Assembly: GCA_025617745.1 (NCBI GenBank)
Contig: CM046858.1
Location: 41,399,850 to 41,463,849 of the forward strand
Direction: 5' to 3'
Length of the DNA stretch: 64,000 nucleotides
From: Heliocidaris erythrogramma
Lineage: Eukaryota; Echinodermata; Echinoidea; Camarodonta; Echinometridae
Shown: piece after piece, positions 28,101 to 50,600 of the stretch
Position numbering within the stretch: the first letter of the stretch is position 1
How the letters are laid out: every line of letters begins with the position of its first letter
Program-made: the position numbers and the translations under genes
The notes under the pieces: generated by a model
What the model was told of the DNA's origin: nothing
The model's input: only the letters and a program-made list of their open reading frames with translations
The model's database searches: none

Positions 28101-31100
28101 ATTGATTTTAATCAGTGTTGATAAGCTGTTGGAGATAAACTACACTGATAAAAAAAAAATGATTGTAAAATGTCAATCACTTTGTTTATGTGTATGGATA
28201 GTGTACACAGTGAACCATTCGAAATTAATTTATCAATATGTAAATTTTGTTCGTATGATTTACTCTTCTATGTGCTTGCTTGTTGATTGTTTCAATTTGA
28301 TAATTTTGTTTTGGACTAGCGCCTTGTTTGTGATCGATGAACTGAGATTTTATTTTGTTACTCTGGGGCGTTTCATGAAAGGACTTGTCAGATATTTTAT
28401 CCGACAAATTTGCTCTCAGCCAATCAGATGCAAGGATTTCAGTAGCTTATAACAGTTGTCGCATAAAATATCCGACAACTTCCTTTCATGAAACGCTCCC
28501 CTGATAGTGTAGGTTTGCTTAAAACGTAAAGATTGGTCATATAGACGACTCACCATGGCAAATTTACATAGAATCACCTCACATCATTGGACAATTTTTC
28601 CCCTTCAAAATGCAATGCTATAACAGAAATAGAAATATATTTGCGATAAAAGTGAGAAACAACAAATTAATTTCTCTATACTTATTTCATGTTGTGGTAT
28701 GGGATTACTGAGGAAAAAAAACTACCGGGATTTGTTTCCGTCTGCTGATTCGAAATCTTCTTCCTGAAACAGACGCCATGTTAAATTGGTTCAAGTCAAT
28801 TAAAGGTATCTTTGCTTCTCCCTTCCATCAAATATATCTTGTTTTGACTTTATTTGATTTTTAAACAGAAAGAATGCAGAGAGATGGGTCCTTACAGGCA
28901 TTGGCGGATCCAGGGGGGGGGGGCACAGCCGCCCGTGCCCCCCCCCCCCCCCCCCCCCCCTGTGGAAGAGAAGTATGAATTTTGACCAAAAATATACGGG
29001 TCTACCTTTTGACAAACTTTCATTTTTGTGCCCCCTCTTTTACTCAATCCTGGATCCGCCCCTGCTTACAGGCACCTGATAAGTTTCCCAACGAAATCAT
29101 GTTACAACTAAATTTTAAGAACTTGCCATGTAAACCTGAAAAGGTGGACTGATACACGTTACAGCCAGAAATATACATCCGGAAACTAGTGAAATCACTC
29201 GGCTTGAATGGAATATTCTTTGTTGCTATTCATGGGCAAATCCTCGTCTGAAAAAATGTTCACCTTTCATTAGAAGATGTCAAGCTGTTATGGAGTATGG
29301 GATTAAGAAACCCCAGTTTTTTAATCCAGTCTTGGATGGCAGAGTACATGTATATTGGCTTACCTACCACAATCAGATGGACTCCATCAGGAGTTCATCG
29401 TCAGATATTGTCTCCTGAATTAAATCATTGTCGAAACAGTATTGTCCAATAAAGTTAGACTTTATGACCCTATGCTCGTGGGTAAAGTAGCTGTCTGTAA
29501 TAATCTAACATAGAGCGTTTCCATGGTAACATCATGCCTTTACGAGTATTTCTCTTGAGTATTCGATAGTCTGACATTCCAAGGACATTTAACTTGCAAA
29601 GACCACAATCTCGTCTACCACATGAATGTGGTACACGTGGTAAACAAAGAAGAAAACGATACTGTGCCAAGAGGGATTTGAACCCCTGACCCTCACATTC
29701 AGGGGGTACATACGTATTACGTGATGCTCCGTTAGCCTACGCTTCAAGAAAGGTAATGGATATTATAAGAGTAGTTGATTCAGGGGGTGCCCCTTTCGTA
29801 TTTCACAGATTAGGTGATTGTGATGGTTCCCCCCCCCCCCCCCCCCCCCCCATATTAAGATGGAAAGATGCCCTTGCTCACGATTTCACTCTTAAAGAAA
29901 TAGATGATATAGACAATTGGTATAGCCTACTAAGCATGACCTTTTTTTTTGGGGGGGGGGGGGGGGTGGTCTAATTAAATACCATGTAGTTACAGCAAAT
30001 AACATGTAAATAGTTGTTTACATAATCTATTATAGAATTACATAGCCGCTCGATGGCGTAGCGTCAGACCAAACAGGGGAGGGGGGGGGGGCACCACTCC
30101 AAGTCCAGGTACGGAGTCTTCTTATGTTTTCCTTGGAAAGATGTGCATGAAGAGAAGCCACTTTGCCCCTGACTCTACCCCTTTTGAAATCATACCGTTC
30201 TAAAGATTCTATTTCTTCTTTCATTTTTCGATCTTTAAAAATGTTCTTTAATGTTTATTCGGATTGTGGTCTACATTATCACATTGTTACTGTTAATGTA
30301 ACCAGGGAATGTAACTAAGACTATCACGTAATTATACAAACAGAACACGTGAGCTTTCTTTGTTTGACAAACTACATGTACATCCCTAAAACTCCTGCAA
30401 GACATCTTAAGAATTGGAACATCGACAGAATTGGAACATCAAAAATAACTTCTCAAATTACACTCAAAATTTAAGACAATGTATATAATCAAAATATGTT
30501 GTCAAGATGGTTCATAAAAATGCATATCCCCTTGGGCTAGCATTTGAAATGAAACATAAATGGCACAAACTGTAAATTTATGTTACTATTGTTTATTTAT
30601 ACAGTTGAACCCAGTCACATTCTTCCAATACCTCAGCAGAGCTAGATAAGTATTGAAATAAAAACAGACATACATTTATATAAGTGAGAGAAATAGGTAA
30701 ATGTCAGCGCAATTGTATAATTAGAACGTACGGGTTACGCAACACATTTCGTTTAGACTGGTCCCCCTAACTTACTCAATGTCCCAATTTCACCTCAGTC
30801 ATTAGATTATGTCAATACGTGCGCCAAAACAATGCAGTTCATAATCATTATTTTTGGATTTGTTTCTCCATAATGTGTTTGAGTCCGTAAGTCAATCAAT
30901 GTTTCTTATTTTCTCTCTATATATCTCAGTATCCCTCTCAACTTTTTTTCTCTCTCTCTTCCTCTCTCTAAAGCTCTCTTCATCATCTATAACAAGTCAT
31001 CATCATGATCTATAATAATTGTGATTTTTTTTGTTCTTTGCCCCTTTCTCCCTCCCCCCTCTCTCTCTCTCTCTCTCGCTCTCTCTCACTCACTATTCCT

Positions 31101-31568
31101 CACTCATTCGCTCTTTTATTTTCTACTTAGAACATCTACGCAGCCATACAGAAATTAATATATTTCGTGGATAACCACAATGGTGTAGCTCCGGTAGACG
31201 TACAACCGATCGAGAAAGAATGGGTGAAGGGCGAAGGCAACGTGACAAGAAGGTAATACAAAACTCTCTCTCTCTCTCTCTCACTCCCACACACACCTCC
31301 TTTACTCGATAGCCCTGTTCTTTCGCATTTCACCTGCCTCATGTTTCCAGTGAGACCGCCCCAACCATGACGTCAGTTCCCCCTCAATAGCTTCCTGACG
31401 CTACGCCACCTAATGTAAAATTCTCACCTGAACTTTTGCTCGGAGTGATATCTTCTTCTTTCGTGGTCGATCATCTTCACTCGAAGATGATGCCAGTGAT
31501 AATAATGATTTCGATCTCGATTTCCTCTTGGGGATGATCTTCGAGATCATTTTCCTCGCCGACGACAT
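8737..31568 (-). CDS. TRPA1-like: Gene A: TRPA1-like ankyrin-repeat cation channel (complete, 21 exons)
   Basis: Predicted plasma-membrane cation channel of the TRPA family, whose members sense temperature, irritants or mechanical cues. Coding exons (high to low): 31568-31428, 24909-24754, 23891-23682, 23159-23066, 22589-22325, 21914-21251, 20651-20560, 20124-19909, 18840-18720, 17950-17814, 16582-16461, 16083-15955, 15376-14928, 14232-13915, 12989-12849, 12201-12093, 11614-11523, 10927-10700, 10173-10105, 9451-9263, 8982-8737. Every junction is GT-AG and all phases agree, giving about 1395 residues. About 11-12 ankyrin repeats (residues about 70-740), six membrane segments (about 950-1240), pore MMLGDFDF, post-S6 IGLAVYDVHEI and a C-terminal coiled coil. 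WQWQCGAVAV (S4) and NLMIGLAV (S6 end) closely match TRPA1. The start ATG has an in-frame TAA 18 bases upstream. Which TRPA subfamily, and which stimulus, cannot be told. Intron 1 (6.5 kb) could hide an exon. Confidence 0.88.
9263..9451 (-). CDS. Gene A exon 20: cytoplasmic C-terminal segment
   Basis: 63 residues, VEAIMEVQQYLPVCIW through EKTASE. It is collinear with the TRPA1 region after the post-S6 helix (VELHTSLEKKLPLWF in vertebrates, from memory), including the YYPN block. It is Cys-rich (GCCPRMRRGC). Acceptor TTTAG, donor GTAAGAG; phase 0 at both ends. Confidence 0.85.
9489..9543. repeat. Tandem repeat, 18-bp unit, three copies
   Basis: The unit AATAAGATAACAATACAA repeats about three times just upstream (minus-strand sense) of exon 20 of gene A, in intron 19. 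Confidence 0.75.
10105..10173 (-). CDS. Gene A exon 19: end of S6 and post-S6 helix
   Basis: 23 residues, IGLAVYDVHEIRRKAKFYRL plus AMR. It joins exon 18 to give NLM-IGLAVYDVHEI, equivalent to NLLIGLAVGDI in TRPA1, the gate-proximal end of S6 and the TRP-like helix. Phase 0 at both ends. Confidence 0.88.
10700..10927 (-). CDS. Gene A exon 18: pore helix, selectivity filter and S6
   Basis: 76 residues. PPFNRVEQSLVKTMAMMLGD matches the TRPA1 pore helix and filter (SMMLGD), with the filter acidic residue kept. An acidic turret (VDEDDFF) and a hydrophobic S6 (FVMFAVFVAIMSIIVVNLM) follow. Phase 0 at both ends. This is the strongest single family signature in the gene. Confidence 0.9.
11523..11614 (-). 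CDS. Gene A exon 17: S5
   Basis: About 31 residues, DILRSFLKFILVLFCFLMAF then AVALYMLLLNQ. This matches TRPA1 S4-S5 linker and S5 (VVFIFLLLAFGLSFYILL in human, from memory). Starts in phase 1, ends in phase 0. Confidence 0.87.
11744..11805. repeat. (GA)n tract and G run in intron 16 of gene A
   Basis: A GA-rich low-complexity stretch with a pure (GA)n core near 11748-11770 and a G run near 11783-11799. Long open frames across it on both strands are repeat artefacts. Confidence 0.8.
12093..12201 (-). CDS. Gene A exon 16: S4
   Basis: About 36 residues, GWQWQCGAVAVCLAWINFIM then FLRRFSFLGLYVLMFM. The WQCGAxAV...WxNFxxxLxRF pattern is a clear TRPA1 S4 signature. Starts in phase 0, ends in phase 1. 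Confidence 0.9.
12849..12989 (-). CDS. Gene A exon 15: S2-S3
   Basis: 47 residues, VILLVVQRLSYFRTRKLVEC then a hydrophobic S3 (TMYILAVLFVIPL) and the S3-S4 loop ending IPLRL. Phase 0 at both ends. Confidence 0.87.
13035..13320. mobile_element. hAT-like MITE with CAG-GGCGGATCCAGG ends, copy 1
   Basis: The element spans 13043-13312, opening CATTGGCGGATCCAGG and closing CCTGGATCCGCCCCTG, in intron 14 of gene A. It is flanked by a perfect 8-bp duplication, GTCATAAT, at 13035-13042 and 13313-13320. Three long G or C runs fill its interior. CA...TG ends with 8-bp duplications are typical of hAT elements. The superfamily call is inference. Confidence 0.75.
13686..13825 (-). mobile_element. tRNA-derived SINE fragment
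   Basis: On the minus strand a tRNA-like head with a B-box (GGTTCGAGTCCC) is followed by CACTAACGTCTTTTGACAAG, the same order as in the complete SINE at 59888-60250. Truncated; lies close to exon 14 of gene A. Confidence 0.6.
13915..14232 (-). CDS. Gene A exon 14: S1, S1-S2 loop and start of S2
   Basis: 106 residues. KSERTDLLTHPLVVSLLNHK fits the pre-S1 helix of TRPA1 (ELLNHPVCKEYLLMKW in human, from memory). S1 is FWPSLILYFVFLVMLTGYV, and the exon ends in GHWVILGLAIVHLVCE (S2). Unlike human TRPA1, the HP motif is followed by LV rather than VC, so that cysteine is absent. Phase 0 at both ends. Confidence 0.88.
14928..15376 (-). CDS. Gene A exon 13: acidic linker between ankyrin domain and S1
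   Basis: About 150 residues. A low-complexity Asn/Gln/Glu/Asp stretch (NNTNNNNDSTEEETQ...) precedes SDRMVKNHPLIAM, which leads into the pre-S1 helix. The donor is ATG followed by GTGAGTGT. The exon is much longer than the matching linker of vertebrate TRPA1. Starts in phase 1, ends in phase 0. Confidence 0.82.
15817..15890. repeat. (GA)n microsatellite
   Basis: A near-pure GA tract in intron 12 of gene A. Other (GA/CT)n tracts lie near 19010-19033, 20741-20763, 25070-25103, 27265-27400 and 31059-31092. Confidence 0.85.
15955..16083 (-). CDS. Gene A exon 12: linker after the last ankyrin repeat
   Basis: About 43 residues, VAQAVMDKCIEISPYADRKD then EEFWIEFYYEFLEDSFSLW. This fits the TRPA1 region LLDFCMLHS...YYIEYNFKYL (human, from memory), with the DKC cysteine retained. 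Phase 1 at both ends. Confidence 0.85.
16461..16582 (-). CDS. Gene A exon 11: last ankyrin helix and TTPMKKLIEKMP motif
   Basis: About 41 residues, NVAYFLLSHRDWKQIMSSSS then WDEYHKDRTTPMKKLIEKMP. The TTPMxxLIxxMP block is typical of TRPA1 after the ankyrin stack. Starts in phase 2, ends in phase 1. Confidence 0.87.
16661..16896. mobile_element. MITE family 1, copy A (236 bp)
   Basis: Perfect 31-bp terminal inverted repeats, AATAGACCTGTTTACTAAGT then GATTCAAATTT. The second copy at 46123-46358 is inverted, also exactly 236 bp, and nearly identical inside, but its ends begin AATAGGGCGGTTTACGTAGT. Lies in intron 10 of gene A. No target duplication is evident. Confidence 0.88.
17301..17721. mobile_element. 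Foldback element with arms of about 150 bp
   Basis: The left arm (about 17301-17455) reads CAGACCCAAC, GGAAAACCGAGCACAGGT, AAAACGGC, ATATAGAGCCCTCAT and ACAAAAGGCATGGGG. The same blocks occur in reverse complement in reverse order to 17721. The middle is about 120 bp. It lies in intron 10 of gene A, 93 bp from exon 10. It is a long-TIR MITE or a fold-back element; superfamily unknown. Confidence 0.8.
17814..17950 (-). CDS. Gene A exon 10: ankyrin repeat
   Basis: About 46 residues, ATPLHLACIGGHLDAVQQLT then a second repeat start (RDHRGRNCMEYAADGGNE). Corresponds to exon 13 of gene B (MTPLHHACKQG...GGRNCLDHAIDNGHE), with the same phases (0 in, 2 out). Confidence 0.9.
18190..18560. repeat. CTAT-rich array with a 144-bp tandem duplication
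   Basis: TATC/CTAT microsatellite carrying two copies of a longer unit (starts about 18231 and 18375). Each copy ends in a TGATGAAGGCCTATG...CCGAAAA segment. A pure (AT)n run follows near 18519-18552. Lies in intron 9 of gene A. See the finding on the hammerhead-like core. Confidence 0.75.
18720..18840 (-). CDS. Gene A exon 9: ankyrin repeat
   Basis: About 41 residues, KADERTALHFAAANGWAKPV then RSLVKAGADINFPDKNG. 121 bp, the same length and phases as exon 12 of gene B (GLSPLHYVAARGW...). Confidence 0.9.
19153..19451. mobile_element. TTAA-flanked MITE, AAAGGGATAC ends, copy 1
   Basis: About 300 bp bounded by TTAA and short inverted ends (AAGGATAG / TATCCCTT), with an interior matching the element at 60958-61284 in the opposite orientation (for example AGAGGGCACCGTG, GAGCTCGAGCTC, GGCTTACGCAATCCTGACTT). 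TTAA flanks suggest a piggyBac-like non-autonomous element (inference). Lies in intron 8 of gene A. Confidence 0.75.
19909..20124 (-). CDS. Gene A exon 8: ankyrin repeat
   Basis: About 72 residues. TVGALIRWKPEMVDAFDDDG, then KTPLHHAAAHGHDGVIQELA, then a Thr/Asn-rich loop (GAGYHQETTNSDVMDNT) not seen in gene B's exon 11. Acceptor CTTTAG, donor AAGGTGACT; phase 2 at both ends. Confidence 0.88.
20560..20651 (-). CDS. Gene A exon 7: ankyrin linker
   Basis: About 31 residues, LLLRYRSKLNDASDNDIKKY then MSHAAKNGHTE. Matches exon 10 of gene B (ILDFEFRFHEMTDDGIMDYI...) in position and phase (0 in, 2 out). Confidence 0.87.
21251..21914 (-). CDS. Gene A exon 6: ankyrin repeat with a long acidic insert
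   Basis: About 221 residues. KANLNKTDVDYLTPLQVAAN begins an ankyrin repeat, interrupted after LLDRHYNNNK by roughly 165 residues rich in Asp, Glu, Asn and Thr (for example AIAEEEDEAPVDAEND). The repeat resumes at SIAEFLDWVVTENKANVLK. The matching exon 9 of gene B is only 190 bp. The insert is in frame and both splice sites are canonical. Phase 2 in, 0 out. Confidence 0.88.
22092..22320 (+). mobile_element. tRNA-derived SINE fragment beside exon 5 of gene A
   Basis: A tRNA-like head with B-box (GGTTCGAATCCC), then ACGTCTTTTGGCAAGACATT and CCACTCAGGTGTAAATGG, the body shared with the SINE at 59888-60250. The head is degenerate and the 3' part differs. It reaches almost to the donor of exon 5 (22325). 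Confidence 0.65.
22325..22589 (-). CDS. Gene A exon 5: two ankyrin repeats
   Basis: About 88 residues. NDDSLLHIACSNGHVDIVEL and RTPLHLACIGNHRAVVECLV are clear repeats, preceded by a charged stretch (EKRDDLQMHDLDNGVHDD). Corresponds to exon 8 of gene B. Phase 1 in, 2 out. Confidence 0.9.
23066..23159 (-). CDS. Gene A exon 4: ankyrin repeat
   Basis: 31 residues, LMTEPNWNWVAPMHEAVRGG then HTDLVKKCLDEG. 94 bp, identical in length and phase to exon 7 of gene B. Confidence 0.9.
23682..23891 (-). CDS. Gene A exon 3: two ankyrin repeats
   Basis: 70 residues. RTPLIVACENNLTDIALKLI and DTPLHIAFRKGNRTIAERII. 210 bp, identical in length and phase to exon 6 of gene B. Confidence 0.91.
23957..24102. repeat. 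C-run, A-run and CAA-rich tract (inverted partner at 24548-24670)
   Basis: A C run, then about 30 A, then CAACAACAA-rich sequence. About 450 bp away, at 24548-24670, lies its rough reverse complement (TTGTTG-rich then a G run). A similar C/A/CAA tract is in intron 7 of gene B (56149-56240). These give long false open frames. Confidence 0.7.
24754..24909 (-). CDS. Gene A exon 2: first ankyrin repeat
   Basis: 52 residues. A basic leader (KPKLNPPFRKKRSDINAK) runs into GLTPLHVATLDGNVDGVREL, ending KDIDIN. Corresponds to the 3' part of exon 5 of gene B (GMTPLHLAFMHAN...GVDIN). Phase 0 at both ends. Confidence 0.9.
27753..27818. repeat. Tandem repeat, about 27-bp unit
   Basis: Nearly three copies of a unit containing ATCTTGTCATTA and TCTTCTTCCTAGT. 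Confidence 0.75.
28365..28501. mobile_element. MITE family 2 (GGAGCGTTTCAT ends), copy 1
   Basis: Foldback element. The left arm reads GCGTTTCATGAAAGGA and the right arm is its complement (CCTTTCATGAAACGCTCCC). Each arm holds a smaller hairpin of the form TTGTC...ATTTT...GACAA. The central part, CTCAGCCAATCAGATGCAAG and onward, is the same as in the copy at 47580-47717. Confidence 0.8.
28891..29072. mobile_element. hAT-like MITE with CAG-GGCGGATCCAGG ends, copy 2
   Basis: The element spans 28899-29064 (166 bp), opening CATTGGCGGATCCAGG and closing CCTGGATCCGCCCCTG. It has a perfect 8-bp duplication, CTTACAGG, at 28891-28898 and 29065-29072. The interior has a G run and a C run of about 20. 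Shares TACGGGTCTACCTTTTG with copy 1. Confidence 0.8.
29640..29745 (-). mobile_element. tRNA-like SINE head
   Basis: On the minus strand a tRNA-like piece with a B-box-like GGTCAGGGGTTCAAATCC. No acceptor stem pairs well, so it is more likely a SINE remnant than a tRNA gene. Confidence 0.4.
31428..31568 (-). CDS. Gene A exon 1: start codon and basic N-terminus
   Basis: 47 residues, MSSARKMISKIIPKRKSRSK, a Ser/Asp/Glu block, then PRKKKISLRAKVQ. ATG at 31568 is preceded in frame by TAA. The donor is CAG followed by GTGAGAA, phase 0. The basic/Ser-rich character resembles exon 4 of gene B rather than its exon 1. Because it lies 6.5 kb from exon 2, its assignment to gene A rests on strand, phase and open frame only. 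Confidence 0.65.
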
Positions 31569-31590
31569 GGCTGCAGATCTCCTTTAGAAC

Positions 31591-31835
31591 CTCAGAATAG
31601 AAGGCCGTGTAGTGCTTGCAAGCTCGATAAACTAAAATGTTATGAAGAGTTCTTGCTTAGCGTCGTGTAACGGCTAACCCATAACAGAGCGACAACAACT
31701 CATATGGACCCTCAAAATAGAATATAGTGTGCTTCTTGCGAGCTAGTTGTTGAGAAACTAAAATGAGATGAAGAGTTTTTTGGTGGAGATCACATCGTTG
31801 TGCAACGCCTAAACCAAAACAGAGCGACAGCGACT
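31591..31835. repeat. Tandem duplication (120-bp period) beside gene A start
   Basis: Two diverged copies begin at 31591 (CTCAGAATAG) and 31711 (CTCAAAATAG). They share blocks such as AACTAAAATG, ATGAAGAGTT and ACAGAGCGACA. The second copy is about 15 bp longer. They lie directly upstream (minus sense) of the ATG of gene A, so in its promoter or 5' UTR. Confidence 0.7.
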
Positions 31836-31928
31836 CTAATCGAGATGGTGCTCTGGCATTAAATGTTCCGTCGACAGTTGCTCCGGGGTTTATTCCGTCA
31901 AAGATATCGGGTTTGGGTCAGGGTTATA

Positions 31929-31962
31929 ATTGGGTTTAGGCTAGGTTAGGTTTAGGGTTAGG
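31929..31962. repeat. Degenerate telomere-like (TTAGG/TTTAGG) stretch
   Basis: GGGTTTAGGCTAGGTTAGGT is followed by TTAGGGTTAGGGGG. These are a few irregular units of a TTAGGG-like motif, about 360 bp upstream of the gene A ATG. Confidence 0.6.
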
Positions 31963-32360
31963 GGGAGGATGGGGTATAATGTTTAGTCCAGGGTTGAAGT
32001 TAGTGCTCCGATTGGTGCGCAGGATAATGACCGCGGAGGATTTGTCACCGGAGTATGTATCGCCCAACCACACTGACAAAGACGTTGCGCGTTAGACTTC
32101 ACCGCAAGTAAAGTTTTAATGCCAATGATCCGCTCAAGCAAAAGCGCTCTGATATAAAACCGAGCTCCCTCTATTTGGCAGCTATCAAGTCTCAAAGTTC
32201 CACTTTCAGTTTTTGGTTCATGCTATCCAGGTAATGAGGTAAAGCTTGGCTAGTCAAACCTATCAAACACTATACCTTAATCAGCTTGTTTATTTCACCT
32301 CCGCTTCATTGACCTAAACAGTGGGCGAACGCCTTTTGACAGAAACTATGCAAAATTGAT

Positions 32361-32390
32361 TATTTATTTATTTATTTATTTATTTGCTCG
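32361..32390. repeat. (TTTA)n tract
   Basis: About seven units. Comparable to the tracts near 836 and 62868. Confidence 0.7.
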
Positions 32391-33499
32391 ATTTCATTGT
32401 GACGTTCTGTACAAAATAACAAACAGAAAATGAATTTACAGGAGCATTAAAACTATAGTTGGCGTTTTTTTTTCTTAAGCGACCTAAAAGAGAGTACTCT
32501 TGTAGAATGACCTTGAGAATTTGCGTTTCACTTGCCGATCTTCTTTCTTTCTTTTGTCAAGTAAATTGTAATTGTTGTTTTGGGATATCAACACAGCCTT
32601 TTTAAGCATGTCAAAGTAGTTTCAATATTTCGAGCAGAACTATGCTATTGAAATTGGCACTATTCCACAGTCTCAAACCCTAATACAACTCCCATTATAA
32701 AAAAATCACCCTTTTTAATGGTAGAATAATGCCAACACTGGAAAACGATTTCATTTTTTTTTAAACATTGATCTATCTTATCTTCTCTTATTCATGCATT
32801 AATTCATTGTCGAAATAAAGTGACAGAATTCAGTTGTATTAAAAAATGTCTGATAATCATGATAATGAGAGGTTTAATGTATCCCTATCACTTGAGATAA
32901 GATCATAATTATTATGTTCAAAGATTAATATTTTCATTTTATTGCTATGTACGGCTGGATTGTATTTTTGATATACGATAGCACCATGCATGAAGTCACT
33001 TTCTACCAATTTATCAATTGAGTAAAAACTACATGAATTGTTAATCTTTAATATGACACTAACATACATGTATTATCTGATTATTGTTTTAAAACAAATT
33101 GGATTTCTTTTTACAACTCTAAATATGACAAAGCAAATACATTATTAACAAATGAGATTATAATGATTAAGTTTAAAATCACATTTTAGTTCACATGTTC
33201 TGTCACTAAATTAATGTTCAAAATCAGTTAATCTGTTAATCGTGTTAATGGGCAGTTCTATGATTAGCGTGGTCCAGCGTTGACTATGTTCCAGTATGTG
33301 TCATTGCAATTGAGATATCAGCGCCGTACCCACTTTATACAAAAATAAGGTTAAACTACAATATTAATGATAAAGATAATAATAGTAAACCGTTCTTGTA
33401 CTAGTATTGCGCGTTTCACGTTATGATAAAACGTCCCTATATGCTCTTCCAAAGGTTTGGATATTATTACCCTGGCTTTAGCTCCGGCGGCTATCATCA

Positions 33500-33665
33500 G
33501 CGCACAGTGCATTTCAAGGAATATACTGCCAGGTACCCATTAACCACCTTAAGGGAGAGTGGAAAACGTGGATTTAATGTCTTGCCAAAAGACGCTAGTG
33601 CCGGGCTGAGATTCGAACCCTCAACCCTTGGATTGAGAGTCAAGTGAATGGACCACTTTTTGCTT
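33500..33665 (-). mobile_element. tRNA-derived SINE fragment
   Basis: On the minus strand: TTGACTCTCAATCCAAGGG, a B-box (GGTTCGAATCTC), then GACGTT-type AAGACATTAAATCC and GGGTACCTGGCAG. The same order as the SINE at 59888-60250, lacking the 3' part. Confidence 0.65.
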
Positions 33666-34717
33666 TGCTTTGCTTTCATGGGACATTATCATGGACTTCC
33701 GGAAGTACGCCATAAAATGCTGCGAAATGACTCATGGCCATGTATAAAATAAAGTGAGTAGAACTGACTGTAACTATAATGAAATAATTTGCAGAGCCCT
33801 CGACAGAATGTGAAAAAAGATAGGGCTGAAAAAGAGAAGATGAATGATAGTGAAATATGATGTTGGAACACTAAAATTTGTTTTTGTTGTTAGTGGTGGT
33901 GGTGTCGTAGTTGTTGTTGACGGTGATTATATGCTTTGACGGCTTTGAATTTAAATGCCCTGCGCTGTATAATACCTCAGTCACACTGCTGTAAATAGAC
34001 TCCACATCGACTTCAAACCGATCGTATTCTTGGCCTTTAAGGGTAAAGTAATGTTTGTTCGGTTTCTGACGGTTATCGGTTTCGACTGTCTCGTATCGTT
34101 GGAGACACTGGGGTATCACAGGGAAGCAGAAACAAGTGAGGAGTAACGCAACAACAGCAACAAAACACAAACACAAAGAGTGATGATGGAGGGGGCGGCA
34201 GAGATTGTCTACAGGCTCATTAGGGTTGTATGAATTGGAGAGCAATGGTGGAGATGGCGGGGGGGGGGGGGGTTGCCCAGAGTTTCGTCACACTTAGCCA
34301 ATCGCATTCAATGCTGTTTCTCTAATAGCCAGAGGGAAATCACATTCGCATTCTCAAAATTCTTGCTGTCACTGTATCGAAGTTTTTAGATTAATCATCC
34401 TAATATTCAGCAAAGGCAGATTAATATTAGCGTGGGCTTTATGCACTTAGAGATTATTACGTCATATTTCACCCCTGTGTAAATCCATTCATTTGAAAAG
34501 CACGCCTGATAGCCCAGAATCATGTCATCTCCCCCATATATGATTTTAAAGCCAAAACATGTTACTGACTGGGATTGTGAAAATAAACTCATTCATACGC
34601 AGGAATAAAGACTTTCAAAATATAGAAAGCCTTGTTCGTCACCTATTGAAATGTGTGAACATTACAATGGAGTATAACGTAATCTGAACATGATTTCATC
34701 GGGATATCCAATAGGGT

Positions 34718-35011
34718 GTTGTAATGGGGTCCGCTCGCTATGCATAAGGACCGCTATTCATACAAATCCGCTATTCACTTCGTCACCCGTTATGAATAGC
34801 GGTCCTTACGAATAGTTATGAATAGTCCTTATGAATGGAGGTCCTTATGTATAGCGAGGTACTTTGTCTATGGTTTCTTCGCTAATTAGAAGGACCACTA
34901 TTCATACAAAACCGCTATTCACTTCGTCACGCTTTATGGATAGCGGTCCTTATGAATAAGTGGCATTATGAATAGCGGTCCTTATGACTAGCGAGGTTAC
35001 CCCGTTGTAAT
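34718..35011. mobile_element. Foldback MITE, CGCTATTCATAAGGACC family, copy 2
   Basis: The element spans 34726-35003, opening GGGGTCCGCTCGCTATGC and closing CTAGCGAGGTTACCCC. It has a perfect 8-bp duplication, GTTGTAAT, at 34718-34725 and 35004-35011. The interior is a chain of inverted GCTATTCAT / ATGAATAGC blocks. Confidence 0.82.
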
Positions 35012-35064
35012 TGCCATTGAGTTGATTTTTCGAAAGTCTTTGCTGGAACAAACAAGATTATGTT

Positions 35065-35360
35065 TTAAAGTGACAGTAAATTGAAGCTCCTTATGGCGCC
35101 ATCTTTCAACAGGGTTTAGATAGTGTCTGTGCCTCTAATTTTTCCGTCATGCCCCATTCTAGTTTGTAGAAGCTTAGAATGTATCTGTAGGCAATTTTTC
35201 ACATGTGTAACGTCGAAAATAATAGTTTGAAATATAAAATGTGCCTATTTTCCAAACAGCTGTTAGTCAAAATTCAAAATAAAATGCAATTAATTCTCAA
35301 ATTATAATCTCAATTTAGCAGTTACTGTAATATGGCGCTGTTCAAAATTTGCCAGTTTAA
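35065..35360. mobile_element. TTAA-flanked MITE family 3, copy 1
   Basis: About 296 bp bounded by TTAA, opening TTAAAGTGACAGTAAATTGA and closing AATTTGCCAGTTTAA, with imperfect inverted GCGCCAT / ATGGCGC blocks inside each end. It aligns along its length with 53831-54223. Confidence 0.7.
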
Positions 35361-36366
35361 TGATTGCCACCCTTTCTGCTTCTAATTCAGGCATGTCATT
35401 AGAGTCGGAACTGGACTTATGGATTGACATTATTTTACTGATGGATAATTTATTACATCATCTCTATCTTTCAGATCAACTTGTTTCGGGTAAAGCTACT
35501 AAACCTGCCAAGATTTTAATCAGGAATCGCAATATAATTAGCGATTGATTGTTTTCGGATATCGTGACGATCCTCTTTTAATTAAAACCGTACTACCGTT
35601 CTGTATTAACCAGGTCGTTATTATGGGCATTAGCGCCCAACTCTAGATTAATTGCAATTTATAAAAATATTGTGAAACAAACGTCAGCTTGTTTTAATAC
35701 TTATTATAATAATAACCTTGACACAGATTTGAGTGACATACTTGTATTATGAAACAACGTGGGTTTAATGCACCTATATACCTAATGAATCGGTTAAATT
35801 GCTTGTAAACAATGAATACGTGCAGATGGAATGCAAGGTAGAAAATATCAAATAAAATTCTATTTATTTTCTGTTTTATCGGAAATCAGTTGCCTTACAC
35901 GAATCAGAAGTAGCAGGCGTACGCCCCCATGAGTCGAATTTGCAGCGGATCTATGGCAAAAGGCGGCGACACCCCTACCGGTTATCAATGGCAGAATACA
36001 TTATTTCATGACTTTTATATCATTAGATAATTGTCTTTGTAAATGTAGAACTCTATGAGGAGCATTGCTATCATTTGTATTTTGGACTGCCTTTGTTTCA
36101 ACTCTCTTCAGTTAAAAATGTTTTTTATATATTTTAATGCTTTGTCATGCTATATGCCGTAAAATGTATCCTTCTTTATTGTTCTGTAGGTCATTTGGTT
36201 ATAATTGTGTCTTGGCGTAAATGAGGTTTCTTAAATTTAATTACACTACTGCGATCTACACAAATCATATTATTGCTTTTCAAGAAAAATGGTCAGAAAT
36301 TGAAAAATAGCAAAAATACAATGAAGATCAAGATAATATCCACGATAACAGGGGATATTGTAATTT

Positions 36367-36692
36367 ATACAGACACATAGATAGCTCTGGGTTCACATAT
36401 AGACAAAATAAGAATACAAGAAAGAAAAAGAAAAATACAAGAAAAATACAAGAAAAATACAAAAGAAAAGTGAAGAAATATACATGACAACAAACATGAC
36501 AAAGGAGATAGTAATTCACACAGAGCCATAGATAGCTCTGGGTTCACACAGAGCCATCCATATACACAGAGTTTGGCTGACTCTGGGCACAACATGGCAT
36601 ATATTCCTTTGTTGCATGTTTGTCTAACAAAGTTGTAACTACTCGAGCCGAGTTGGCCAAACTCTGTGTATAGATAGATGGCTCTGGATTCA
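36367..36692. repeat. Inverted and direct repeats (GATAGCTCTGGGTTCACA)
   Basis: The block AGCTCTGGGTTCACA occurs twice directly, and GAGCCATCCATATACACAGA with GTTTGGC pairs with GCCAAACTCTGTGTATAGAT further right. This makes a hairpin with a loop of roughly 70 bp. Confidence 0.65.
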
Positions 36693-36866
36693 CATTATAG
36701 TCAACCGCCCTCTATAATCTGCAAACAAATTTATTTTATCAGTCCATAAGAAAGTACCGGTTGATATATATATCATGACTGTTATCATGGTTAATATCAT
36801 TGTTAATGATATTCATTCATAGTTCTATGCTATTTTTACCTTGTAAAGTGAAACCTGTATAATACC

Positions 36867-37124
36867 ATCATTTGCAAAAGTTTAAGACCACTATTCCAAA
36901 ATGCAATAAGTCAAAGAAAGAAAAAAAAATGTTTTTCAGACATACAATTATTTTCATGGCATAACCTATGTATCATACTTGAACTATAGGCTTATACCAT
37001 TACTCTTGCGCTACTGATCACTCTAGTAAACATTTTATGTAATCATTCAATGAGACAAAAGAAAGTATTCCAAATTATTGAAATACCCAAAATCCCGAGG
37101 TGATCTTAAACTTTTGCAAATGAT
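36867..37124. mobile_element. Tc1/mariner-like MITE (258 bp)
   Basis: Perfect 21-bp inverted ends, outermost ATCATTTGCAAAAGTTTAAG. Only one copy is present in this window. The terminal sequence and AT-rich flanks resemble Tc1/mariner derivatives. That assignment is inference. Confidence 0.75.
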
Positions 37125-38018
37125 AGTAAAGACATGACTCAAAGGAGACGAGAAAATCGGTCTCTATAAAAAGGTGATCTTTATTATGTACAGGTTCATT
37201 TCGTACATATTCCAATAAGAAATACTGCCTTGGGGAAACAAATATTGTGGTTTTTATTTGACAGATGGCCTTTTATACAGGTTTGACTGTAGTTGTTACC
37301 ACAAGCATTTAATGGGGGTAGTATGCTTTCCTCATAGGGGTATCTAAATTAATGAAATTTATTATGAACCCCAAACATTTTCATCAACTTGACCTTTAGT
37401 TTTTCTTATATAGCCCCCTCTTCGGTTAAAAGTTACTACTGAAACTGCTTTTTCCATAAACAGTCAGTATCGCGCGCATTGCATTTATCTCACAATTCTT
37501 AAACTGGATAATTGAATTTTTGCTATTTCGCTTCGGCTTTCGTGTACTAATAAGCCAGTTTGGGGTTGCAATCTGAGCATGAGCAGATAAAGGTCATCTG
37601 TACCAAATTCTAAAACCCACTGACACTAACATTCGATATGTGCTCATGAATGTCATGTAATCATTATTCAATTATGCCCTAATGGTGCATTCCATGATAT
37701 CCAGGTGGAAGTATTCTTTTTAAAGGGGGAAACAAAAGCTATTCATGAGGCACCTCTATCACTCCCAGAGTTATTTTTCTGAAGTGCACATAAAGGGACC
37801 CTCCATGTCTAAAACATCTGTTGATATTTGGGGTCATTTGTACAATCTCAGTACCATGCGCTAACCCCGAACTGGCTTATTAAGGTGATGGAATATATAT
37901 ATATATATATATATATATAATGCGAAAGGAAATGAGAGAATAATGGTTGCGTAACTTAAATCAAAGTTCCCCAGAGCTGTCCTCCCTTTTTGAAATTTTT
38001 TGCAAAGGCTGAAAAAAT

Positions 38019-40218: not shown

Positions 40219-40614
40219 TGAAAGTTCATGTATTCTATGATGTGATGATATACCCAAATACTCCTGTATAATATATGGAATGAATACAAAGAGAGATTAG
40301 TTCGATGAAACGTTTCCAATATGACAGTATTAAAAGGATGCATGTCTTACAAGATAACGGGCACAACTGACACGTTACTGTTGGTGCGGATCGGCGAGCC
40401 ACTTTATCCGATTCCAATGTATCTAGAAGTCATAACAGTAATTCCGAAGGACTATAGCCTCATTGGCCAGTATATATTTATACTTATTTATGTCACTTTT
40501 ATCATGACTGCAAGTATAGTTGATACTTGATTCATCTAAAGCATGGTCTGGTGAGCATCTCTCCTGTAGAATAGATTTAGACCCGGTCACACCAGTGAGG
40601 CCGACACCTGGGCC

Positions 40615-40700
40615 CTGTTTCATAAAAATTTGTTATCTATAACAATTTTTTATGAAACAGAAATCCTTGAATCTGATTGGTTGAGAGCAAATTGTGTGCT
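40615..40700. mobile_element. MITE family 2, partial copy
   Basis: One arm, TGTTTCATAAAAATTTGTTA folding back to AACAATTTTTTATGAAACA, is followed by the complement of the family core (CCAATCAGA, AAGGATTTC, TTTGCTCTCA). The other arm is missing. Confidence 0.6.
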
Positions 40701-41039: not shown

Positions 41040-41102
41040 GAGGTGTCGTAGTCGAGTGGTTTAAACACCGGACTGGAGATGGGAAGGTCGTGGGTTCGAC
41101 CG
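41040..41102 (+). mobile_element. SINE head (tRNA-Leu/Ser-like)
   Basis: GTCGTAGTCGAGTGGTTTAA (A-box region) and GGTCGTGGGTTCGACC (B-box). It resembles the head at 51606 and lacks a recognisable body. Confidence 0.5.
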
Positions 41103-41443
41103 AAATAAGCATTAAGTTCCCACAAATGGCCAAGGATTGGCCGTTTGGAATCTGTGTGGAGTCGGTCTGTATAGGTGTGACTGAGGTATTCCTCTAGATT
41201 TGTTGAAAACATGACATAAAAAAGAAAGAAATGCATATAATCGGCCTGTGATCCATTCTTAAGATATCTTTTGCCATGACAGTGATGACGTATACAGGTC
41301 AACGGTACGGTTGATTGGTTCTTGCTTTGTGAGAGCTGGCCTTCTAGTCAGCTTTTCAAGATTACCCGACCAAAGCTGGCACGATCTGTCGGCATCCATG
41401 GGCCGAACAACCTGGATCTACTAGAACAGCGTCAGAAGGTGAA

Positions 41444-41629
41444 ATGGCGTCGAAGAGGATGAACGGGTCTCTCCCGAATCTAGGGATCGACGTCGGCCAA
41501 CGAAATGGGGGAGGACATAAAATGGAGATGAAAGCGATGGCAAAATCTATTGCGTGTTTGAGCACGAAGGGTTCAGGATCGGATACACGCAGAAAGGTTT
41601 CCATACTTCCTCGTGATAAAAGCCAATCG
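41444..41629 (+). CDS. Gene B exon 1: start and basic N-terminus
   Basis: 62 residues, MASKRMNGSLPNLGIDVGQR through ILPRDKSQS. The donor is TCG followed by GTAAGTTT, phase 0. It lies 7.4 kb from exon 2, so its linkage is less certain than the rest. Basic and Ser-rich, with no recognised domain. Confidence 0.6.
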
Positions 41630-44600
41630 GTAAGTTTGTCTACGTTCCGTGTCTTTGATATTTTGCGCTTTGAACCCTCAGGAGAAAGCGCTTTATAAAT
41701 CTAACCATCGTCATCATCATCATCATCATCATCATCACCATGTTATAAACTGTGTAATGGCGTATGCCAATGCATTGAGGGGCACCTGTCTTACACGTTG
41801 AGTGAAATGCCAATCAACAAGACCAACTGAGAAGTTGTGGGAAGGAAGGGGGAGTCAGAGTTTCTTACTTTAACGCCCCTACCTCTTCCCCGTTGGACCC
41901 TCCACCACAATACGACCAATAAGTCGCAATGGGAGTTTTAGAGTAAACAGCTGAAATAGGTGGTTTGGGGTGGAAATTTTGATTTTAAGTTTCGTATTTT
42001 CTGAATGTTCATTTATTAATCTACCATCTGACAAAATTTCAGGGTAAAATACGACGTCAAAATATGTTTTTACTCTCATTGAAAATGACCATGTTTTCCT
42101 GGACATTCAAACTTTGTGTGTCAACTTGCCGGGATGGTACCTCACATCGCATTTCTGGTATAGCTTAAAAACTATGCACTGTCTGATATTCAAAAGAAAC
42201 AAGGAGAAAGTTTTAACCCAATCCAACAAGTACTTCACAGTGTACGCTCGGGAGTTTGGACTCGACCTGTTGTGCAACAAACAATAGGACACAGATTAGG
42301 CACTCTTAAATGGTCACTCTTCTTTAGAGCCCATTTTCTCTATTGTTTTGGTCATTAGCCTGTCCGACAAGGGTTTGCTTAGTCCATACGAGACAAGTTA
42401 TACATCAATTTAAAGCTTAGAATCTAAGCTTTCAAACTTTGTTGAAATTTAAGAAAACAAAATTTCCGACTTATTGGAAGTTTTGTGGTGGAGGGTCACA
42501 TTTTGTTTAAGTTGAACACCGCTGCCACCAGTGTAAGCTGTCCAATTTCTATCTCTTTCTCTGCACTGCTCTATACATCTACTCAAACAGATCAAACTTT
42601 TGCTCTCCTAAAGTAAAAACACGCTACAGACTAACTGAAGAAAGGGAGATAAAATAAAATAGCCTTCACTAGACGAGATCCGGAGTTGCACTGACTTCAA
42701 ATTCAATTTGAACATTCAAACTGTCTTAAACGTATAAAAGCAACTCAGGCATCAAACAAAACAGCAACTCAGGCATCAAACATAACAGGAACTCAGGAGA
42801 CAACGAAAAATAAAGAGATGTAAACTTGGTGAAGTCTGGTAGGATGATCCTATATGCTTGGATTTTGAAGCAATAAATGAATTTTAATATGAATTTGAAT
42901 CCACCAAGTAAAACCGATACAGCCCCCCCCCCCCCCCCATCAACGTCTGCCATTGTCAGTTCATCTGTGATGTACTATAGGTATATAATAAGTATCGACT
43001 AGCCTCCCACTAATCCTGTCTAAGCTGCGGTTTAATCTCACTGTTCCAGACTCCGGCATTTCCACTAACAGCCAGGGGCGTCACTAGAACATTTTGAATA
43101 GGGGCGGGGGTGTGACAGCCTAATTTGCGACAGTGTTTTAGGGTATGACTCCGAAATTTGCCGACAGAAATGCTGCACCCTAATCCCTCTCCACAAATGA
43201 TAATTAAAGAAAATCGCAGATGTAGAAATCTTTATCATACGTGCTCATTTTCACAAGGAAGGGGGCTCTGACGCCTATTGCCCGGATTTCAATATTTCAA
43301 TTTTATTATTTTTTTTTTTTTTTTGCGAGCGAGCATAATTTGTTGACTTCTCGAAGTGAAAATGTACAAAAGTTACATACAGAAGTTGCATAATTATTTG
43401 GGATCCTCGCTACCCAGATATTCTGGCACCTCGCTGCCCGAACATAAGAACTTTGAAAATCCTGGGGGGGGGGGGGGGCTGCAGCCCATTACAAAAGGGG
43501 ACGCCTTTTGCCCGAATATCAACTTTCCAGTCTTTTGCGAGCGAGCGAAACGTGGGCAGTTTTTCCTTCTTTTTCTCTTCCTTCCCTTTTTTATTTGTTT
43601 TCTCTCTTTTTTCGTTTTTCCTTTCTTTTCCCTTTTCTTTTTTTTCTCCCTTCTCCTTCCTATTTTCTCCTTTTCCTTTTCTCCTTCCCCTTCCCTCGTT
43701 TTTTTACCCTCCTGTTTTTGCCAACAGAGATGGCGCATTTGCCGAGCGCAGTTTTAAGTGGGGTGTGTGACACCCCTCACCCCTCCCCCTTCTAGCGACG
43801 CCACTGCTGACAACAGTGAAAACAATGGATTTTAGAAATAGGCAAGAAAGTGTCGCCGAGTTTCAAAAAGTAGACATCAAAAAAGGGTTCAACAACATTG
43901 CATGGCACAGGCACAAAGAAAGAATAAATCTGCTGACTGTAACCTAGATTAGGGGGGGGGGGGGGAGGGGACGTGCGCTCGATCGAACACCCTCCCAACT
44001 CTCGACGACCTTGTTCTCTTATATTTCGTCATCTTAGGACAACAGATCTCCCCCCCCCCTCCCCATGACAACAGTGCCTCCTTATTGCTCACCACTTGCT
44101 CTAATTTTCTGCGTTCCATTTGGTGTTATTTATTATATACAAATACGATACAACCTTGAATACTCACGTCATGCGAAAGACTAAATAAAAATAAAAGCGA
44201 TTCCGTAGAATTATACTTCTACTTCTTTTCACTTCAAGGTATAATGGTTTATTCACTGAAAGTAACTGGTGACCGATTAAATACGGTCGACATGCACCAA
44301 AGCGTTTATTTTCTTTGATTTGTGATTCCTTTGGGGCCCCAATTGGACATTTTCTACTGAGTGAACCTGTAGAATGGGGGCTGTGGTCGAGCAAGTCCCC
44401 ACCCGCGCCCCAGTGGGTTCCCGGGATAAACTCTGGCCTGAACTGGAGAGAAGTTATTGTATTATTCTTTTCATTCACGCACAGAATGTTACTATTTTAT
44501 GTAGTATAAGTTTTCCGTAGATTCTTAAGGACTTTCTATTATGGCATCAAATGATTGTAAACAAGACGTACCATTCGTACATTTTGCGCGATCTTGGCGG

Positions 44601-47600
44601 GTATTGAATGGGCTCTGAAGACTGAAGCTTTAGGCTGCTTCACAAGTCGATCTCCCTGCTCTTAACTTGCTTAATTAAAATGCGTTGTTCTGATTATGGA
44701 GGAGGCAATCCCCCTCTATTCTAATTTTCTTAAAAGGGACTAATCTACCTACCTCCAGAATTGGCACACTTTACAGCAATGAAGTCTTTTCCGCGTAGAG
44801 CTTATAGTGCCTTTTTTTTGCTCGGGTGCCCAATGATAATGTACTTTAGAGTAGCCTGGAATTAATTACAAGTTCCTTCAATATCACAATAACTGTCTTT
44901 TTAACTTGGCACCCGATACACTATGTTGAAAGGTCACTGCCTAGAAGTAGATGGCTTCCGATGGCAAGGGCATTTTATGGCGATTTTATACGAACCATTG
45001 GAATTTTGAAGAACCACTTATCGCTGTCTGAAGATGTACACCCTACCAGTTAAATAAAACAGTTGAAAATTAAAAGGAGCACTATTTTATAACTAAAAGG
45101 TGGCATGACAGTATTGAAATAGCTCTGTAGGTTTCAATGAGACACTTTTTCATCAGTCAAATTACCCCCTGGCCTTGGCAGTAGGGAAAAGGGGCAGTTT
45201 GAAAGCTGGGATAAGATTTGATTTGACTTGATTTTAATCGTCAAGTATAACAGTATATAAATACATTAGAACATAAACTGTGTAACAGTAAAAAGAAAAA
45301 AATACTATATAACTGAATTAACCCACGAAAGCAGATAGTAAGCTTTTTCCAATGGGTCCTAAAAAGAAAGGGGAACTGGGCCTGTTCCATGGGGTAAACA
45401 AATCACTGCCAAGCTCCATGGTCGGTGAAGCGTCAGTAATCCGTAATTCTTCTCAGAATCTCTTTTCATCACATTTTCCCGTTTTGTAATATACAGCTTA
45501 ATCTCACTCTTTATTTCTAATAGGGTTTTTTTTCCGCTTTGCTTCAGTGGTCTCTTATCCTCCTAAGATCAAAAAGGAAAACCAGCACGTCTCATTATAA
45601 TGTCCAATGTATTTTGTTCTTTTATGTTTATCGCATTCAGTATGTGTTTTCACGCTCGGTAAGAGCTAATTCCTATATGAAGATAATGCTTAGGCCTTCA
45701 AATCAGCTTATTCGTTACGTCATTTAGATGTTATGGTAATCTTAGATGTATGGAAACATAAAAAAGTATCCTACATTTTTATTTAATGAAGTTAATTATT
45801 CAATTGTCTCCAACGGCCACCAGAAGGTGGCAACTGCTGTGTGATAGGTTGCTCGACTGCTGTGAAAAAAATCACAGGCAGACCGAGCGGGATTCGAACC
45901 CGCGACCTCTGGATTACCAGACCAGTGTCATAACCACTAGACCACCGGAGTGCCCTTAGTGGTGTAGGTTCGAACTACCCTATTAATAGATGTCAAATCA
46001 ATGGTATATAATTAATCCGTTGGGTAACATGAAATAATGAAGTTAATTACTAGTATTCAATTGTCTCCAACGGCCACCAGAAGGTGGTAACACAGGCAAC
46101 TGCTGTGTGATAGGTTGGAGACAATAGGGCGGTTTACGTAGTGATTCAAATTTTATGCATACTTTTGAAACAAAGGTTGTTCTTGACAACCTGAAAGCTT
46201 GCCCGAGGCTTGCCCGACATAGCAACAAGTAATGTATGCAAAATGGATTCCAAGTATTGTAGTTCATTCATTAATAACAGGTTAATGGAATACCTCGTTA
46301 CTAGGTCCCCAGGAAAGAAACATCCATAAATTTGAATCACTACGTAAACCGCCCTATTGAATCAGTTCATTTCTGATGTCCAAACATCTGTCCTTAACAA
46401 CCAAATTGTTTTCAATAGAAATTCTTTCATCTTTGGTTTCATAGAAGGCAGGCAATCTAGATTTAATTTTGTTAGTCTTCATGCAAAACATTATATATTT
46501 TCTGCCAGATGCAAGAAGGAAAGACTGTCATTAAATTATTTTAAGCATGAACTTAGACGTTTTCGCGATGTTGATCGAATCCTTTACACGAAAATAAATA
46601 ATTTTGTTTTATATCTAGATAAATGGAGAAATGTGCAACTGATGTAATCCTGTATTCTTTGAAGCATTATATTTTACAGATTATTTGTTCATATGTGTTG
46701 ATTATATGTCGTTCTGGAATGATTTAATAAAATCTTTCAATTGAAAGAAAAAAAAAGTCAGCTTCATCTGTGATTAGAAAAAATCCATGACTTAAGCATA
46801 GCTCACACGAGGAATTTGCTGACGGTAAAACTGCGTCAGTGACTATAGTTATGTCATTGCGCGTCATGAAAGGGTGATAACTAACAAGTGATTGCAAAAT
46901 GAACAACTGGCGTACGAGTTAATTGCCTTTACAGGCTCGATTAGCGCAGAAATAAGCGGGGTTTATGCACATGGAGCGTCGCGTCGTAGTGATTAGGCCT
47001 ACGTCATTATTTGCGCTAATCTAGCCTGTGAGTGGGAAGGAAATTGGTCAATAGTCAGTACTTCAACGCAATATCTGCAATGTTATTTTACATTCACTTT
47101 TGTATGATGTCACTCTCATTAGGCGAGCCAAACGCCCAAGGCCGCGCCATTTGCTAAAGTAATTCTACGCCATCGAATCACGCCCCGCATGTGCAACAGG
47201 CACACTCCCAGATTTCATGTATCAAAAAGTATAATAAACATCATAGGCTCTGAATCAGCTTCAAAAGTCAGGTAGTGGGCAAAAAGAAAGAAAGAATGAG
47301 AGAAGGAAGGAAAAAAGAGAAGAAAATGGAAGAAAGAAAGAAGAAAAAAACCCCACTCAAACAAACATAACCTCGTATTTTGATCGCACTGACCCGAATC
47401 GGTAATAGTCCCCGTTAGATTCGCTACAATGACAAACAGTAAGTTATTGCTTATTGCTGTCTGCCCTTCGTATATTTGAGAAAAAATGGATTCAAATGTC
47501 AGAAAGCAATGTATAGAGTGCCGAAATAGTCGTAGGATGCTAAATCATTTCCTTGCTTTATTAATTTGAGGAAAGTCCTGGGGAGCGTTTCATCAAGCGT

Positions 47601-50600
47601 TTTGTCAGTGATTTTTACTGACAAATTTGCCCTCAGCCAATCAGATGCAAGGATTTCAGTAGCTTATAACAGTTGTCGGTGAAAATCACTGACAAAACGC
47701 TTGATGAAACGCTCCCCTGTACCCATCCTGTTCCGTGAGCGGCAAATCGAACCCAAGAATTTACACTTTCTATTGATGTAAAATGGCGTTTATATTATTC
47801 TCTAAACACTTTAATTGACACAAAAGATAATAATCTGCCACATGTTAACCCTTACTGTAGTAGGGTGGGGCGGTCGGGGGGGGGGGGGGGCGTATTACGA
47901 ACCACTCCATTATGTTTACGCCAAGCCACTTTCTGACATTGTTTTGATTCTTTCTTTCAAGTCTTGCGCATCTTTTTGAAACTCAGTTGTTCCGTTGCCG
48001 AGTCACCTCAAGCTCTCAAATCAGCCCGAACATGGAGAGTTTTTGTTCAAGTAACACATTTAAACAGCAAACCTTAAAAAAAGAAAAAGCTAGAGTTGAA
48101 AAAAGTAAAGAAAAATACACGAACAACAATTCTTCAAACAATAGATTACAAAAATATTGTAAGTTTTATAAAGAACTTCTTGCATAATAGATTATCTCAA
48201 AGACCTTTTTTTACTTGCCATCAGTGAAAATGTATGTTTATGAGGCTAATTTGCACAAATTTGCACATTAAATCGAAAATTTGAAGAAGAAGAAGAAGAA
48301 AAAAAAACACACAGTGGATTTGTGTTCCTTAGGGTATACTCGAGGTCCGTTCAATATTTCGCTGCATTCGGTCTTGTCGCAGCCGAGGGGTCCAGTCTGG
48401 CCTCTTTGAGTGAGAAGCTATTTTTCCGAAATCCAACATAAAGGGAGACATGGTACAAGGCCTCTCAGCACCACCCAACATGCTGAACCAAATAACTACA
48501 TGCAATGACATGTCAGGGAGGTGTTGCAAAATTTCCTTCAGTAGAGTCAGTAACACGATATACATACAATTTTGTTTTAGTTATATAATTGACCTTTGTT
48601 TCAATGAGGTTTTGCTTCTATTCATCATACCTTTGTTTATTTGTGTTTTGTTTTGTTTCTAAGGATAGCGACATTACTTTCTGTAGAGTATAATCCCACA
48701 TGCCAATCGGTTCTGATATAGTTTTCCCACGTGTTGTCAAAATTGTGTTCATTTTGAACAATAAATGTTTGGCATAGGAAGGGTTAATGACGTTGGCACA
48801 AATGATCCACAGTGAGTCGGGTATCAAACCATCTACAAATAATTAGACAAAGTTATATTTTCAATCTGTCTTTCTTCAAAAACGTATCAGCTATACTCGC
48901 ATCTCCCATCAGCGTATTATGTGAATTATTATGTAAATTATTTGCTGTTTAATAAAAGAATTTCAAACTTTATTAGACTTTGGTTATCATGCTTGTTTGC
49001 AGTGGTGCTCCGGCTATCAATTGCAATATGTGGACACGGTTATCGCGGGAGTGAAGGCGGGCGACCACGTCAAGATGACCGAGATGGTTAGTAAGCTGGG
49101 TACAGAAGGTTTCGCCGCAATTATCAGAGAGCATGACGGGAAGAATAATGGCCCACTTCACTACGCCGCCTTCAACAACGACGTTCTCATGACCAAGTTG
49201 TTGCTTCAGTATGGGGCAGGTATGTACATGTATGTCCTGTGGTGATCATAGCATAGATCTAGACATTGAGGGGCAAACAAATCGGGGGGGAGGGGGGTGG
49301 GGGACATTATCACTCAGTCCCTGCAAAGCCCGTTTAGGGGGTTGGAGGGGGTCGTAGAGTCTTTTTTTTAAATTTCATTCCTATTCCCCCTCTCCCATTT
49401 TCTCTTTCTACTCTTTATTTTCAGATTTCTTTTCCTCCTTTTTTTTACAATTTGATACCTGGCATACAGAGAATACGACTGTAGCAACAATACTGTTAGG
49501 TCTGGCAGTACAAATACATTTTTGTGCAAAATATTAATTTCCTTGTTCGTGAATCCATATAAAGAGGGAATGTGAATATAACGACCCTGCAACCATTCGA
49601 TACAGGATTTGGGAGGGATTGCTACATGGTCAAATAATCACACTTTGGGGTTTGATTAACAATTATAATGTTATTTTGCGTTGCAATTTTCTCTTGAGAA
49701 ATAACACAACATTTGTTGTCATCTGTGCAGACGTCAACGATATCGGAGAAGGTGGAAAGCGCCCTCTTCACTTCGCCGCTATGAGAAGAGCTAGTGATAA
49801 GGTCACTACCATGCAGGTAAATTGCGATGAGGCATATTAGTAGTAATCTCGCTACAGGAAATGAAATATTGTGGATATAAAGAAAGCTTAATAATTACTT
49901 CTTGATTTCCACAAAATTTCCGGAATACATTTTTAAAAGCAGATAGCAGGCAGACTTTTAAAGAAGTTTTATAACGGTTATTATATCCAAATAAACTTAA
50001 ACTCGAACTAAAATATGCGCAACGGATGGTTGTGCCGTAACTTTTAAGATTTTTCTCTTCTTAGACTAATAAAAGTGAAAGTGATTGAATAATAAATACA
50101 ATTTGAAATGGTCAAATGGGCAAACGAAGAACGTGAATATCCCTAATATCATTGGATGATGATAATTATGATTCACCTATTAAATTCAAAGGCAAAGAAA
50201 ACTCCAGATTCACTGGAAATCCTTTTTAAACGCTTCAATAAATACAATATACGTATATATAATAGTGGTGAATGATATGAACAAGTGCTGAAATCATTTC
50301 ATATACCTCTCCCTTTGAATATTGAATCTTGAATATTATATCGTTTTGTCTTCTCTGTTTTTATTTAATGTAACTTTTAGGAGAATGAGGCCGGCGACGT
50401 CAGTTTATACGCGAATCAGACCGAAGGATCTTTATCTCAATTATCAGAAGATAACGAGAAATCCGATCACTCGGACGAGATTCCGTCGAGCCTTTCCAAA
50501 TCGTTCATGGGCTTTCTGAGGGGGAAGGAGAAGAAAAAAGGACCCAAGTCCGCGAAGTCAGAGCTTTCGTTGAAGATCGTTGATGAACAGAAAACCCCAC

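Follow-up and report, generated by a model that had tools for sequence, protein, structure and literature searches.

Concerted arm differences in NuwaI-like MITEs of Heliocidaris erythrogramma and their possible origin in hairpin template switching

How do the two arms of a short palindromic element come to differ between copies and yet remain complementary to each other inside each copy, on either side of a core that is nearly the same in both? The question is raised by two elements in the 64,000-nucleotide stretch of Heliocidaris erythrogramma DNA analyzed here, which we refer to in its entirety as the window. Both elements lie on the plus strand, and in both of them arms of 42 to 45 nucleotides flank a 48-bp core. 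Copy A (135 bp, positions 28366 to 28500) has a left arm of 42 nucleotides (28366 to 28407, with an inner hairpin at 28385 to 28407), a core at 28408 to 28455, and a right arm of 45 nucleotides (28456 to 28500, with an inner hairpin at 28456 to 28478). Copy B (136 bp, positions 47581 to 47716) has a left arm of 44 nucleotides (47581 to 47624, inner hairpin at 47602 to 47624), a core at 47625 to 47672, and a right arm of 44 nucleotides (47673 to 47716, inner hairpin at 47673 to 47695). The first-pass annotation of this DNA had drawn the elements at 28365 to 28501 and 47580 to 47717; the elements are indeed there, but the outermost G and C of those limits are better read as belonging to a putative CTG target-site duplication, which stands to the left and right of copy A (28363 to 28365 and 28501 to 28503) and of copy B (47578 to 47580 and 47717 to 47719). 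The arm starts given in that annotation, TCATGAAAGGA and TCATCAAGCGT, are correct on reading A and B, and its figure of 43 complementary positions out of 45 in copy B is recovered with 45-nucleotide arms, which leave two mismatched columns; a repeat search drew the same arms at 50 nucleotides and 92%. Within the window the family comprises these two intact copies and one partial copy, designated copy C. A fourth candidate, a 17-bp match at 10409, was rejected on reading, as no arms were seen there.

To what class of transposon do these elements belong? Copies A and B are short, carry inverted repeats, and are flanked by repeats, as expected of MITEs; a MITE would also be present in many copies, and the window shows the two and the one partial. 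The CTG is found on both sides of both intact copies, and also at the one preserved end of copy C; the ends of A and B are GGGAGCGTTTCAT-like, with GGG at four of four (GGG...CCC). NuwaI is a PHIS transposon group reported from 16 animal genomes, and the accessible text of the paper describing it gives a CWG target duplication and TIRs of 12 to 61 bp that usually start with GGG (PMC4482050). The CTG repeats, the GGG ends, and the arm length of 42 to 45 nucleotides all agree with this profile, and we class A and B as NuwaI-like MITEs, with the qualification that only the middle base of CTG argues for a duplication because the outer C and G also fit the inverted repeat. Unlike NuwaI, whose autonomous partner carries a DDE transposase and a Myb/SANT protein, copies A and B are noncoding and 135 to 136 bp long, and no transposase or Myb/SANT gene was seen in the window open reading frames scanned; a Pfam scan of 7 of the 36 listed open reading frames revealed no transposase domain, only reverse transcriptase and zinc finger domains. 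Hairpins within the arms and concerted arm differences, both of which are seen in A and B, go unmentioned in the accessible text of PMC4482050. Among the literature matches listed, mainly from outside subscription papers, none described concerted arm change in NuwaI MITEs. A Spy-like insertion without duplication, an idea prompted by the accessible text of PMC4482050, was dropped for this family in favor of CTG.

That the arms of A and B differ and still pair inside each copy had been claimed from a first reading, and the window DNA confirms it. The differences are grouped into two clusters per arm, and two alignment registers are possible for the first arm block. Register 1 provides 42 comparable columns, with 10 differences on the left and 11 on the right, 8 of them in the same column and 6 paired in both copies; register 2 provides 41 columns, with 9 differences on the left and 10 on the right, again 8 in the same column and 6 paired in both copies, and adds a one-base length difference that is present both left and right. 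Concerted columns thus number 6 of 42 or 6 of 41, depending on the register, and when the arms were made to change independently, at least 6 concerted columns appeared in 4 (register 1) or 3 (register 2) of 200,000 simulations; neighboring columns within a block do not vary independently, which makes P values from such data, here and in the comparison of arms with core below, optimistic. Set against these 6 concerted substitutions are 6 nonconcerted columns, or 7 counting a two-base gap at columns 4 and 5. In register 2 they are columns 22, 28, 37, 39, and 40, together with gap columns 4 to 5 and 21. Post-insertion decay may explain the nonconcerted columns, and the one-sided differences at columns 28 and 40, judged by eye, could be CpG decay (CG to TG or CA). 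Left-right mismatches, taken as an estimate of such decay, amount to 5 events in A and 2 in B. A look by eye for inverted arm blocks found none.

A second MITE family in the window, family 1, provides a comparison, and the earlier statement that it is unrelated to the A/B family is borne out, as the two have no common sequence. Its two copies, 1a on the plus strand (16661 to 16896, arms at 16661 to 16691 and 16866 to 16896) and 1b on the minus strand (46123 to 46358, arms at 46123 to 46153 and 46328 to 46358), each pair their arms at 31 of 31 positions. Between 1a and 1b, 5 of 31 arm columns have changed, all five of them on both sides, and the core has changed at 5 of 174 positions; not one of 200,000 simulations with independent arms reached 5 of 31. 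The site reads AAT...ATT at both copies, but this string forms an inverted repeat by itself and is perhaps part of the TIR. Family 1 may be read in the manner of ISL2EU, in which an AT duplication lies in an A-AT-T target, but the TIR of ISL2EU usually begins with GG, whereas that of family 1, if bounded in this way, begins with AG in both copies.

When the two families are pooled, transversions make up 10 of 11 (register 1) or 9 of 11 (register 2) concerted changes, an excess over one half (P = 0.006 or 0.033) that is not significant against two thirds (P = 0.075 or 0.23). This share is a hint, and no more, of block replacement over stepwise point mutation. The pooled copying count is 11 concerted and 6 not, a tally that mixes changes from before and after insertion, omits two gap columns, and gives no rate; events cannot be counted because each family has two intact copies. 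The proposal in the first-pass annotation of a general process that rewrites arms in concert gains from the presence of concerted change in two families, from a process that fits, and from a possible footprint in copy C, but it is held back by there being two copies of each.

That footprint concerns the third copy, which had been noted near 40615 as having yet another arm. Copy C is real (40608 to 40693, minus strand), but it is a rearranged partial copy in which a hairpin abuts the core, and not simply another arm. A CTG at 40608 to 40610 marks its preserved end and the element begins GGC; a near-perfect hairpin at 40615 to 40660 adjoins a 37-bp core remnant (40657 to 40693; identity 92% with A, 89% with B), which it overlaps by 4 bases. 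No second arm was recognized in copy C. Where A and B have a linker between the end of the core and the right hairpin, copy C carries the outer arm in inverted form, which apparently gave rise to its near-perfect hairpin. In ungapped comparisons over 16 positions, the flank inside this hairpin agrees with the reverse complement of the outer flank at 14, whereas the right hairpins of both A and B score 4 and their left hairpins 3 and 1, respectively. A search of bases 1 to 63000 for other stems of 21 with at least 20 pairs and a loop of 0 to 4 found none, nor did ten shuffles contain any. The inverted arm is possibly the footprint expected of a template switch, a reading that comes from the sequence of this one copy, or it may reflect an unrelated rearrangement; a single rearranged copy is no proof that A and B came to differ in the same way.

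What process could have changed both arms together? Our proposal, to which we give about even credence, is that A and B are NuwaI-like MITEs whose arms were homogenized in the source lineage through template switching at hairpins. Both would be nonautonomous PHIS elements (PIF/Harbinger-like and cut-and-paste), presumably mobilized by a transposase encoded elsewhere, and would derive from sources with a nearly identical core. In that source lineage the element would fold back on itself, such that its arms stay complementary, and in the course of replication or repair either arm, or either side of an arm hairpin, would template its partner, passing changes to it in short blocks. The copies would then have inserted with their arms already matched and decayed separately. 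Template switching that homogenizes arms is well established as a mutation process. According to the accessible parts of two papers, it homogenizes inverted-repeat arms and yields multi-base compensatory changes (PMC8604942, PMC8794818), features that template-switch mutation and quasi-palindrome correction would share with A and B (PMC8794818, PMC8604942, and, in its accessible part, PMC3820800); the products also include an inverted copy beside a hairpin, and copy C is alike (PMC8794818, PMC8604942). The work as accessible deals with RNA genes and yeast genes, and the accessible text of PMC8794818 contains no word beginning with "transpos". Pairing inside a copy, taken by itself, may be simple inheritance from the source element.

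Two sources that were each selected for matched ends would have an indistinguishable appearance. Under such transposase-driven coevolution the arms would be binding sites, and the two subfamilies would track transposase variants: each end would mutate separately, selection for two good ends would match them, and the likeness of the cores would come from recent descent or from gene conversion between subfamilies. We consider this somewhat unlikely. The ends of A and B do resemble transposon ends, and their outer 13 bases and TTGTC/GACAA boxes are common to both copies (the left arm of A is without two of the 13), with different bases in between, as binding sites of shifting specificity would have. 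Coevolution would require, however, 11 matched double changes over two families despite little change in the cores, and in family 1 none of the 5 variable columns is one-sided. The hairpin inside each arm also argues against it. A 23-nucleotide TTGTC...GACAA hairpin is present in all four A/B arms with 9 of 10 Watson-Crick pairs in each, although a single 23-mer of this kind is not rare, given that bases 1 to 63000 hold 17 of them and ten shuffles 1 to 7 each. One stem pair (columns 30 and 38) has changed at all four places, leaving the hairpin as well as the left-right pairing intact in every arm, and a second (columns 31 and 37) at nearly all, preserving both pairings except for a G-T in the left arm of copy B. 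Covariation at two nested levels, as first annotated, is therefore real, but it involves two stem pairs, and the nested level is not independent because both pairs are also among the left-right changes.

Did the arms simply differ by chance between two sources, with small numbers inflating the contrast between arms and core? The contrast is weak in either family taken singly, with a Fisher P of 0.037 (register 1) or 0.035 (register 2) for the excess of arm over core change in A/B and of 0.008 in family 1. The core, too, behaves as such plain subfamily divergence would have it. It had been described as differing by about one base, which holds (1 of 48 positions), and as fixed, which as an anomaly does not: post-insertion decay predicts 3.8 core differences between A and B, and the 1 observed fits that prediction (P = 0.11), so that the core requires no special constraint. 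The excess change sits in the arms and not in any constraint on the core. Plain divergence nevertheless leaves the concerted left-right changes without a cause, and it must accommodate the fact that both families of this window show such changes, the contrast reaching P = 0.003 when they are combined (with register 1). We judge it improbable.

Selection for the folded form, whether as a hairpin transcript or small-RNA source or as single-stranded DNA, would work through compensatory substitutions, and we hold it to be quite improbable. The folds are very stable: as single-stranded DNA, copy A reaches -35.9 kcal/mol (z = -9.6) and copy B -52.1 kcal/mol (z = -13.7), with none of 200 shuffles equal in either case. 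A MITE fold, however, owes its stability simply to the inverted repeats. At gathering scores, an Rfam scan of the window gave two tRNA matches and none at the elements, and many paired changes would have to be fixed beside a near-static core. A parallel exists in the zebrafish Angel elements, on which Izsvak and colleagues reportedly published in 1999. Like A and B, Angel elements have long folding inverted repeats, and two copies within lncRNAs have compensatory substitutions in their arms, which the accessible text of PMC3636048 places after insertion and reads as lncRNA function, whereas for A and B we infer changes before insertion; the likeness is one of description. That several unrelated MITE families amplify via a single-stranded intermediate that folds, primes itself, and restores one arm with the other as template is very improbable in our estimation; if true, arms would vary freely while pairing, the core would be inherited, and the arm type would be a core-independent lineage tag.

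Homogenization of the arms by template switching, if it is the cause, would unite the compensatory changes of folding elements with template-switch homogenization. Should MITE arms routinely rewrite each other, paired changes in the arms or in hairpin RNAs derived from them would be no proof of structural selection, MITE families delimited by their ends would be split too finely, and high-copy MITEs would constitute a natural assay of template-switch rates.

Searches beyond the window used exact patterns of the core, of an idealized A-type hairpin, and of a family 1 arm, each of which found 0 stretches in viral contigs; phage records queried with copy A gave no match. The core pattern found 10 stretches in prokaryote genomes, 7 of which fall into two groups with similar flanks (five and two). 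We take all ten as chance, and no paired arms were seen by eye in the 60 to 70 bases to each side of them.

Features of the window as a whole that suggest eukaryotic DNA are its GC content of 38%, many mononucleotide and GA/CT tracts, the two tRNA matches, and retrotransposon domains. The retrotransposon domains occupy three open reading frames at 2476 to 7131 (a zinc knuckle, an RVT_1 divided over two frames, and a zf-RVT), pieces that we take to be LINE-like. Other repeats include a MITE-like element at 36549 to 36686, with arms of 35 to 37 nucleotides and, on inspection by eye, what may be a target duplication around TTCACA, and two long foldback palindromes at 53509 to 53671 and 17301 to 17719, with arms of about 73 to 77 and 107 to 128 nucleotides; none of the three has a second copy in the window (blastn, 1e-3). 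In an AT-rich array at 63100 to 64000, direct and inverted repeats of ATTATTTATAAATAATG-like units are interleaved. Two further arrays, at 7772 to 7987 and 34723 to 35006, consist of GGTCCTTATGAATAGC-like units and are related to each other; the best stretch common to them is 148 bp at 87%.
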